DNA of 64,000 bases from Thioalkalivibrio sp. ALJ7 (GTDB lineage Bacteria; Pseudomonadota; Gammaproteobacteria; Ectothiorhodospirales; Ectothiorhodospiraceae), in NCBI RefSeq assembly GCF_000376865.1, contig NZ_AQXQ01000012.1, forward strand, positions 744,001 to 808,000, written 5' to 3'. Every line of letters begins with the position of its first letter. Position 1 is the stretch's first letter. Shown one piece after another: positions 1 to 2,397 of this stretch. Made by a program: the position numbers and the translations under genes. The notes beneath the pieces are model-generated. The model did not search any database, was not told the DNA's origin, and worked only from the letters and a program-made list of their open reading frames with translations.

Positions 1-966
1 CGCCGCGAAGATCGGCTCGAACACGAACGAGTGATCACGGTTGGCGGCTTCGCGCTTCTCCAGCTTGGGATCGAAGGTCTTGCGCATGTAGGAATACTGC
101 TGCGCCAGCCCGAATTCGGAGGCCATGCCGGAGCCGGTGCCACCCCCTGCACTGAAGATGTAAAAGTACAGCCGCGACTGGTTCGCCTTGATCCCGCAGG
201 AATCGATCAGATAGGAATGGATGAACTTCCAGTCCTCGTTGGCGAACTGGTCGGTGTCCTTGTTCAGGATGATGCGCGCCAGGTACTGGCCCAGGATGGG
301 GGCATTACCCGCGCCGCCCGCATGCACCTCGGACAGGTCCATGATCTTCATCTTGTTGTAGTTGTCGATGAAGTTGTTCTGCCCCGCCCGGTTGGAGAAG
401 CGAATGCGACCCTCGATGTCCTTGTCCAGATCGCCCAGCATCACCATCGGCTCGATCAGGAAGACCGGCTTCACCGCATTGGCCGGCGGCAGGTTCAGGC
501 TCTTGCGGATCCAGCGCAGGGGGCGTCCTTCCTTTTCGCGCCCGCCCGCCTCTTCGTTATCCAACTCGCGCAGGTAATTGGAGCGTGCACTGTGCACGAG
601 CGCAGCCACATCCAACGCGATGTTCGACCCGCAGCGGCCCACGCCAATCAGACACACCGACGGGAAGAATTGCTGCTTGTGCTCCTCCGACTGGCTGCCC
701 TTGGTCAGGCGCGGGAATACCGAATTGCGCAGGTGATCAAGGTTCTCCAGGATGCGGTCGAGATCGCGCTCGGTGAAGTAGTGCGGTTCGCCACCCCGCT
801 CGAGCTTGCCCTCCAGGACATTCGACCGGGCCGCGTTGCGCGGCTGCGTCGCGCGCGCGGCCCTTGATGGAGTGGGGCTCAGCGTCTCGATCTCCCCGCC
901 CTCGGGCACCTCCGGCTCAGCCCGCACCTCGTGGTCCATGTTTTCGTTAGAATTGTTTGTCGGCAT
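1..966 (-). CDS. Tubulin/FtsZ-superfamily GTPase-like protein, N-terminal part (runs off left edge)
   Basis: The reading frame is open from an ATG at 966 to the window edge, giving 322 residues of an unfinished protein. A GGAG ribosome site lies 8-9 bases before the ATG. Three nucleotide-binding signatures of the tubulin/FtsZ superfamily appear in order: GVGRCGSN at residues 108-115 (T1-like), GGAGNAPILG at 217-226 (T3-like), and AGGGTGSG at 273-280 (the T4 tubulin signature). Residues 1-100 are a polar, probably disordered leader followed by a helical stretch. T1 to T4 span about 165 residues against roughly 85 in canonical FtsZ, so the domain is enlarged and this is not the division FtsZ. 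The large tubulin-like families of bacteria (Pfam Tubulin_2 type) are the best guess. No other cytoskeletal gene is visible. GTPase superfamily membership is well supported; the cellular role is unknown. Confidence 0.8.
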   Translation of the reverse strand, partial: MPTNNSNENMDHEVRAEPEVPEGGEIETLSPTPSRAARATQPRNAARSNVLEGKLERGGEPHYFTERDLDRILENLDHLRNSVFPRLTKGSQSEEHKQQFFPSVCLIGVGRCGSNIALDVAALVHSARSNYLRELDNEEAGGREKEGRPLRWIRKSLNLPPANAVKPVFLIEPMVMLGDLDKDIEGRIRFSNRAGQNNFIDNYNKMKIMDLSEVHAGGAGNAPILGQYLARIILNKDTDQFANEDWKFIHSYLIDSCGIKANQSRLYFYIFSAGGGTGSGMASEFGLAQQYSYMRKTFDPKLEKREAANRDHSFVFEPIFAA

Positions 967-1039
967 GGTCAACGACTCCTGCAGTCCGAGCGGGCGGATA
1001 AGGACCAAAAAATGTGATGTAATTCCGTTCGTGCCCCGC

Positions 1040-1068
1040 ACTTAAGCACGCGGGGGGGCACGTTTCAA
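1040..1068 (-). promoter_or_regulatory. Possible sigma70 promoter of the tubulin-like gene
   Basis: On the minus strand a TTGAAA (-35-like, 1063-1068) is followed after 17 bases by TTAAGT (-10-like, 1040-1045), about 75 bases before the start codon. The -10 match is only three of six, so this is a weak prediction. Confidence 0.25.
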
Positions 1069-1497: not shown

Positions 1498-1530
1498 CTA
1501 GAAAGACATGGATCAATCTACGCGCTCGCG
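1498..1530. repeat. Decayed end of the CTAG-flanked repeat family
   Basis: This 33-base stretch begins with CTAG and matches the outer ends of the element at 11045-11347 at 26 of 33 positions (left end) and 27 of 33 (right end, reverse complement). The shared core is GGATCAAT followed by CGCTCGCG. No second end is visible nearby, so it would be a solo relic. It overlaps the 3' end and stop codon of the VanX-like gene. Confidence 0.45.
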
Positions 1531-2208
1531 GTCGACCAAAAAATCGAAGTAGGTTTCAGGGAACGGCTCAGCAGCCAGGGTGAAATGCCACCACTCCTGA
1601 TCGTAAGGTTCGAAGCCGGCCTCCACCATCAGGCGCTGCAGCAGCATGCGATTGGCGCGTGGCTGGGGCGCAACATCGGCGCGAGGCCACGAGGTCGGAC
1701 TGAATCGATCGAAGCCCGTCCCCATATCCAGCTCTTCACCGGATTCGGCGTCGATCAGCGTCAGATCCACCGTCGACCCCCGGGAATGACTGGAGCGTTC
1801 AGCAATATAGCCCTGCTCGAACAAATCCTCCTTGGCGACATCCGGGTAGTACCGATCCTGCATCCGAGTGTCTTCGAGGTCCTCGGCCCAGCGCACGAAG
1901 TGCGCGACCGCCCGCTGCGGCCGGTAGCAGTCGAAGACCTTGAGACCCAGCCCAAACCCGGCCAGGCGCTCCTGCACCTGAGCCAGCGCCTTCGCCGCCG
2001 AGTGGGTCAGAATACAGGCGGGCGCCTGATAACCATCAATCGGCTCCCCCACGAAGTTCTCTTCGCCAAAATAACGGATCTCCTCGACCAGCCCAGGCAC
2101 AACATCCGCGGCGTCCACAAAACCCGCCGGCCGGGACTGCCCATCCGCCGCAACCGGCACCGCCAACAGCCACGCCAGGCTCAGCATCGATACAACGATC
2201 ATGCGCAT
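1513..2208 (-). CDS. ddpX: Periplasmic D-alanyl-D-alanine dipeptidase, VanX/DdpX family
   Basis: The product is 231 aa with a clear signal peptide (residues 1-21, hydrophobic core followed by AVPVAADG). The family zinc and catalytic residues are all present: R97 in the YRP motif, H141 and D148 in SSHSRGSTVDL, and E205 with H208 in EWWHF. Family members hydrolyse D-Ala-D-Ala; exported, chromosomal versions outside van clusters are usually tied to peptidoglycan turnover or D-Ala recycling rather than vancomycin resistance. No van genes, regulator or peptide transporter lie beside it. The last residues (RERVD) and the stop lie within a sequence resembling a mobile repeat end, so the C-terminus may have been remodelled. 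Function is inferred from motifs. Confidence 0.85.
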   Translation of the reverse strand: MRMIVVSMLSLAWLLAVPVAADGQSRPAGFVDAADVVPGLVEEIRYFGEENFVGEPIDGYQAPACILTHSAAKALAQVQERLAGFGLGLKVFDCYRPQRAVAHFVRWAEDLEDTRMQDRYYPDVAKEDLFEQGYIAERSSHSRGSTVDLTLIDAESGEELDMGTGFDRFSPTSWPRADVAPQPRANRMLLQRLMVEAGFEPYDQEWWHFTLAAEPFPETYFDFLVDRERVD

Positions 2209-2320: not shown

Positions 2321-2397
2321 TGGTGGCTACGCCCTGATTCGAACAGGGGACCCCATCATTATGAGTGATGTGCTCTAACCAGCTGAGCTACGTAGCC
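2321..2397 (-). tRNA. tRNA-Met (anticodon CAU, elongator type)
   Basis: The 77-base sequence folds as a standard cloverleaf with acceptor stem GGCTACG/CGTAGCC, D arm AGCTCAGCTGGTTAGAGC, anticodon loop CTCATAA and T loop TTCGAAT. The CCA end is encoded (2321-2323). It closely resembles the E. coli elongator metT sequence, and its acceptor stem starts with a G-C pair, unlike initiator tRNA. Confidence 0.95.

Follow-up and report, generated by a model that had tools for sequence, protein, structure and literature searches.

An apparent FtsZl2-type tubulin relative in Thioalkalivibrio: motifs, fold, history and gene context

At the left edge of the window, the whole stretch of 64,000 nucleotides from the sulfur-oxidising bacterium Thioalkalivibrio sp. 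ALJ7 that we analysed (G000:C12:744001-808000), lies part of a gene with the nucleotide-loop signatures of tubulin-type GTPases. What kind of protein does this gene encode, and what might it do beside the ordinary FtsZ? The first-pass annotation had suggested a second tubulin-like polymer. A second protein is present that seems to belong to the superfamily, and it is distinct from FtsZ: the organism's own ftsZ was found elsewhere in the genome (G000:C6:101896-103050), after an ftsA-like gene; its polymerisation, on the other hand, is something we infer. By its described features, with PFL_1302 compared by description only, the window protein appears to be a member of FtsZl2 (FtsZ-like 2), whose type is PFL_1302 of Pseudomonas fluorescens Pf-5 (Makarova & Koonin 2010, PMC2875224). 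The kind, though little studied, is therefore already known, and the window protein would be a further member. Our additions are the assignment of its C-terminal domain, a history of transfer and loss, the selection acting on the gene, and a neighbour in Pseudomonas. The excerpts returned by our literature searches held no account of FtsZl2 beyond the 2010 description; the string also occurs in PMC7327170.

The gene and its tubulin-type motifs

The frame at the left edge, confirmed here and assigned to the minus strand, which had previously gone unnamed, opens with an ATG at 966 and is cut off by the window edge at base 1. The stretch to the left of the window supplied the rest of the gene, so that we could retrieve all 749 codons (749 aa; L002:16717-18966, minus strand, same contig; Table 1). 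The poorly conserved polar leader that had been described does exist, but it covers about 60 residues rather than 100, the conserved block beginning at residue 60-63. Nor does it serve as a distinguishing mark: relatives in genus g289 have leaders of only about 11-14 residues (with a heuristic choice of start), and leader length is therefore not a family hallmark.

Table 1. Positions of the features discussed in the text (window coordinates unless a locus or residue range is given)
Feature	Position	Strand	Remark
FtsZl2-type gene, N-terminal 322 codons	1..966	-	Remainder left of the window, L002:16717-18000
Variable polar leader, residues 1-59	790..966	-	Varies even among congeners
T1 loop GVGRCGSN, residues 108-115	622..645	-	G[LVF]GRCGSN in 102/102 aligned rows
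T3 loop HAGGAGNAP, residues 215-223	298..324	-	Identical in 101/102 rows
T4 signature AGGGTGSG, residues 273-280	127..150	-	Identical in 102/102 rows
T6 LISNDIM	residues 385-391		ISNDIM part invariant, 102/102 rows
T7 RLDANDL	residues 452-458		Identical, 102/102 rows
Ribosome-binding site AGGAGT	975..980	-	8 bases ahead of the ATG at 966, by eye
Candidate promoter TTGAAA-17-TTAAGT	1040..1068	-	Promoter-like boxes in 6/6 genus carriers
Small conserved gene, 69 codons	1169..1378	-	Right-hand border of the FtsZl2-type gene site
MHYT-GGDEF-EAL gene, reference locus	L062:12147-14330	same as FtsZl2-type gene	Domains assigned for L062

The three loop signatures GVGRCGSN, GGAGNAP (residues 217-223) and AGGGTGSG stand on this frame in the order first reported, and the T7 catalytic loop, which the first-pass annotation had proposed looking for, is present in the retrieved part. 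After removal of 2 of the 103 loci, our alignment sets the window protein beside 101 relatives (102 rows in all), some of which are nearly identical. Across these rows, T1 varies solely at its second residue, and the H7 motif NQYISQQ is present in 100. The names T3, T6, H7 and T7 come from a reading against FtsZ, the equivalents in the organism's own FtsZ being IPNEKL and NVDFADV. The spacing from T1 to T4 is 165 residues as against 87 in the own FtsZ, in line with the roughly twofold difference noted at first.

To judge how specific these motifs are, we compared the family with other frames from the same loci. All 82 family members contain GGGTG[ST]G, which is absent from each of 7,747 other ORFs in the 82 loci (at least 60 aa, spurious frames included), and [AGS]GGGTG[ST]G did not arise in 200,000 shuffles of residues 60-749. 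A pattern of the ordered motifs likewise separated the family (82/82) from the other ORFs (0/7,747). It matched only 4 of 30 FtsZ proteins, an earlier form matching 0 of 30, and is therefore a family signature and not a test of superfamily membership.

Upstream of the gene, the candidate promoter reads TTGAAA-17-TTTAGT in the other five Thioalkalivibrio carriers; a generic promoter scan made no call at 1040..1068. By eye, an inverted repeat, GTGCCCC...GGGGCAC, spans window positions 1031-1061 and overlaps the candidate -10 box, and in two of the four carriers from the other clade CCTCGC...GCGAGG takes its place. The repeat is possibly an operator. Among 103 loci with heuristic starts, no clear enrichment was seen upstream for boxes of LexA, FNR, Fur-like regulators, sigma-54 and others: LexA-like boxes preceded 8 of the 103 loci, compared with 4.0 in shuffles, and the remaining boxes were near expectation. 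The surroundings also hold a tRNA-Met (CAT; window 2321-2397, minus), a frame that by eye resembles a VanX-type D-Ala-D-Ala dipeptidase (window 1513-2208, minus) and, at L002:12214-13687 (minus), a pair that by eye resembles an extracytoplasmic sigma factor and an anti-sigma-like protein.

Profile matches and predicted fold

The profile search proposed at the outset returned matches to Pfam Tubulin (E 0.0081, 16.9 bits) and Tubulin_2 (E 0.14, 11.8 bits), but these fall below the respective cut-offs of 33 and 27. The two are the Pfam families matched by all 47 members scanned (E up to 1; best values 0.0013 and 0.0012). DUF6562, Imm42 and other Pfam matches among the same 47 members were taken as chance. 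NCBIfam and PADLOC gave no match and PHROGs a single weak one (E 0.063); sequence searches of the PDB found no relative, one being empty and another returning two chance ribosomal-protein rows. We further aligned the GTPase region, the core and the C-terminal regions with 30 FtsZ proteins by hhalign. None rose above the reversed controls (score 28.9, reversed control 29.5), and hhalign thus gives no support for kinship with FtsZ.

The comparison with Tubulin_2 (PF13809) came out differently. Against five Tubulin_2 proteins the family profile scored 35.7, with reversed controls at 22.0 and 21.8; as a yardstick, an FtsZ profile scored 32.8 against the same five (control 20.5). It is the T4 surroundings that align above the reversed controls. 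This likeness and the weak match in 47 of 47 members are what one would expect of an FtsZl1/Tubulin_2 protein, part of a membrane-remodelling operon with vWA and GTPase genes. We nevertheless consider that assignment highly improbable: the score of 11.8 bits falls short of 27, T6 and T7 are present here whereas FtsZl1 is described as having no identifiable T6-H7 (in the FtsZl1 passages of PMC2875224), and the neighbours of the gene are not general across genera. The window organism's own genome contains no PF13809 match at E 0.001.

Structure prediction was informative for the C-terminal half. An AlphaFold model of the whole protein (47 sequences) was unusable (pLDDT 37.7); that of residues 405-735 reached a pLDDT of 62.2 and a pTM of 0.51, 119 of its 331 residues scoring under 50. 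This mixed alpha/beta model opens with a long helix (H7 by analogy), continues with strands and helices whose order in our reading resembles that in the C-terminal domain of FtsZ and tubulin, and ends in more helices. When it was searched against the PDB with Foldseek, 934 entries matched with an E of 10 or less; the lowest E was 0.0095, and no match reached 0.001. FtsZ, BtubA, TubZ and CetZ fill ranks 1-9, and among the best 50 of the 934 rows, 39 belong to the tubulin superfamily (two judged from entry titles) and 11 lie outside it (ThiL, AIRS, HypE, SiiA). In a viral structure library, weak RusA-like rows came first and a phage FtsZ tenth.

Since the C-terminal half is free of glycine loops, the fold match is evidence separate from the motifs, weak as it is in E-value. 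The half thus seems to be a tubulin-like domain, with the GTPase core outside the usable model. Of the structure proposed at first, then, best matches to FtsZ, TubZ, CetZ and tubulin were obtained for the C-terminal half, which supports a putative two-domain fold; the presumed Rossmann-like GTPase core falls in the part where the whole-protein model was unusable. These results also bear on whether the motifs might have come together by chance in an unrelated glycine-rich protein. Such an assembly would agree with hhalign scores against FtsZ no better than reversed controls and with Pfam scores below cut-off; it would have to account for five ordered motifs that are invariant or nearly so over the family, and for a fold match precisely where glycine loops are absent, and we rate its probability as very low.

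Distribution, history and selection

The gene is patchily distributed. It is carried by 5 of the 29 other genomes of the genus and lacking in 24 (some of them incomplete), by 2 of 369 genomes across the class (our own included), by 9 of 398 across the phylum (including our own and one broken gene) and by 20 of 332 in the order around G527. Of 530 stretches on genome contigs that match the pattern, 387 code for relatives. The 80 best among these 387 are all Pseudomonadota, from Pseudomonas, Marinobacter, Thioalkalivibrio, Halomonadaceae, Alkalimonas, Rheinheimera, Alishewanella, Marinifaba, Laribacter and other gammaproteobacteria, the nearest named kin among them being Thioalkalivibrio strains. 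Locus L088 comes from P. chlororaphis, which we take to be a member of the fluorescens group. Core identity to the window protein among aligned relatives runs from 58% upwards, and FtsZ was found in 30 of 30 genomes with an FtsZl2-type gene (one of the 30 with a broken copy). A broken relative at G767:C1 (about 2486900-2489630; L142-L144), seen as separate pieces, is interrupted by in-frame stops, and two of the pieces stand about 1 kb apart with other sequence between them.

Patchiness, the shared loops and the high rank of TubZ in the fold search with the C-terminal half could all be read as signs of a TubZ- or PhuZ-like protein that moves DNA. However, at the limits used tblastn found no match in 72,556 plasmid records or in 50,697 phage records, and none of the 165 pattern-matching stretches on viral contigs is a relative. 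In a context sample of 82 loci under 15 genus labels, with flanks of up to 10 kb, none of the 45 neighbour families listed extends beyond 5 of the 15 labels. A segregation or phage tubulin is accordingly a reading to which we give little credence.

The history of the gene in Thioalkalivibrio could be followed in more detail. In a tree of 41 rows, rooted by midpoint only, the five Thioalkalivibrio rows join Marinobacter-type and Halomonadaceae rows in a group of 12 (100/100), the forks inside this group being weaker (87/57, 90/87). This grouping makes a transfer of the gene into the genus probable. A succinylglutamate-desuccinylase-like gene (named by eye) directly adjoins it in 6 of 6 genus carriers, and the small 69-codon gene stands on its other side in all five carriers where this was inspected. 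In the nine non-carriers examined (of 24), the small gene adjoins the desuccinylase-like gene across a short spacer (lengths rough). One of them, G029, retains at this site (L130, about 1081-1098) the sequence GCCAGCAGCAAGAAGTAG, in which the gene's five final codons and its stop survive, and from this we conclude that it lost the gene by deletion. The other eight would presumably also have lost it. For each of the 11 pairs that were computed, out of 15 possible, the synonymous distance of the gene was 0.53-0.70 of that of the neighbour, consistent with descent of the gene within the genus.

The FtsZl2-type gene is under extreme purifying selection, with a dN/dS of about 0.006-0.07 compared with about 0.05-0.17 for the neighbour gene (11 carrier pairs). 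Within the genus it is about as conserved as FtsZ (98.5% versus 98% in G004, 94% versus 95% in four others). In other genera, FtsZ is 63-71% identical and the FtsZl2-type protein 58% to about 84%, a comparison blurred by transfer.

Gene context, proposed role and known relatives

Outside Pseudomonas, the families listed include an ETF-ubiquinone-oxidoreductase gene (Pfam) that is adjacent in 12 loci, in Rheinheimera, Alkalimonas and two MAGs. Pseudomonas accounts for 53 of the 82 loci examined. Its flanks are partly common, in up to 31 of the 53 loci, much of this being plain synteny at a branched-chain-type transporter cluster (by eye). More telling is an MHYT-GGDEF-EAL gene that adjoins the FtsZl2-type gene in 27 of the 53 and shares its strand. 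It follows directly downstream in 11 loci (gap 62-75) and stands upstream in 16 others (gap 103-990); it was found in none of the 29 non-Pseudomonas loci. Where it stands upstream, its MHYT part shares 36-50% identity with that of L062, so that the two genes either came together on two occasions or had one of their arrangements rebuilt. The window organism has no c-di-GMP-type gene directly beside its FtsZl2-type gene (adjoining frames, by eye). We take the Pseudomonas neighbour as a lead that points to c-di-GMP signalling for the task of the protein; with a linked signalling gene there, the protein may not always act alone.

What, then, might the protein do? In FtsZ, tubulin and TubZ, loops T1-T4 and T6 bind GTP and T7 acts across the subunit interface. 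Since the T1-T7 set is intact, we expect GTP binding and assembly here as well: T1-T4 and T6 would bind GTP, the acidic residues D454 and D457 in T7 of the next subunit would complete the active site, and stacking of the subunits would give a homopolymer whose turnover goes with hydrolysis of GTP. The product would be an accessory cytoskeletal filament beside the ordinary FtsZ, nearest in role to CetZ, the accessory, non-division tubulin of haloarchaea. Coexistence with FtsZ, the gene context and the absence from relatives all suggest such an accessory role for a gene that would have been gained by transfer, lost in some lineages, and left standing alone in the window organism. By analogy with these proteins, a GTP-driven homopolymer that forms an accessory filament, not for division, is the reading we favour, with moderate confidence.

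Alternatively, the protein could be a nucleotide-binding regulator of tubulin fold that keeps the GTP pocket but no longer forms filaments, acting as a switch in the form of a monomer or dimer. The large T1-T4 insert (165 versus 87 residues) and the long C-terminal extension could hinder stacking, and filament formation is, after all, what we infer. Against a mere switch speak the interface-acting RLDANDL of T7, the same in 102 of 102 rows, and the tubulin-like C-terminal domain that seems to be kept in the model of residues 405-735; we regard this alternative as unlikely.

Returning to the filament reading, the FtsZl2-type gene is constrained to nearly the same degree as FtsZ and yet seems easily deleted, which would suggest a need that is strong but conditional. 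We tentatively extend the proposal to the family, in a form we find possible but somewhat doubtful: FtsZl2 would be a complete, distinct class of bacterial tubulins whose GTP-driven filaments serve a strong conditional need apart from division and DNA segregation, tied in Pseudomonas to membrane-bound c-di-GMP signalling. If true, this would be a tubulin filament under second-messenger control, and the c-di-GMP neighbour provides a first hypothesis on FtsZl2 function. The presence of the gene in many Pseudomonas loci, in organisms easily grown and edited, opens this tubulin-family protein to study, and extreme constraint together with loss in relatives makes the need for it an answerable question.

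Compared with known systems, the window protein shares with the organism's own FtsZ the loop order and the acidic pair of T7. It differs in its length (749 versus 385 residues), in the wider T1-T4 spacing and in hhalign scores no better than reversed controls; its Tubulin score is below the cut-off and its gene lies outside the division cluster, so that it does not qualify as a division FtsZ. CetZ of haloarchaea, TubZ of Bacillus plasmids and BtubA are structures matched by its C-terminal half; unlike TubZ, it has no relative in the plasmid records searched, nor one by sequence in the PDB. With FtsZl1/Tubulin_2, whose PF13809 proteins are called FtsZ-like in the pertinent text of PMC9871819, it has in common the T4 context, the superfamily and the standing of an extra prokaryotic tubulin. 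For FtsZl1, PMC2875224 describes a coiled coil, a place in one operon with genes for vWA and GTPase proteins, and no clear T6-H7, in contrast to the T6 and T7 and the sub-threshold PF13809 score found here. The likeness is closest with FtsZl2 itself as described in that paper: occurrence in Proteobacteria, Pseudomonas included, presence of T1, T4, T6, H7 and T7 (motifs assigned by reading against FtsZ), the long T1-T4 spacing and coexistence with FtsZ. FtsZl2 is further described with some 300 C-terminal residues of mixed alpha/beta make-up and no coiled coil, and the model of residues 405-735 is likewise mixed alpha/beta. We found no sequence difference, PFL_1302 being compared through its description. 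The FtsZl2 passages of PMC2875224 note no similarity for the C-terminal region and no association with other genes; here, the C-terminal region looks FtsZ/tubulin-like with additional helices, and a linked gene accompanies FtsZl2 in many Pseudomonas loci.
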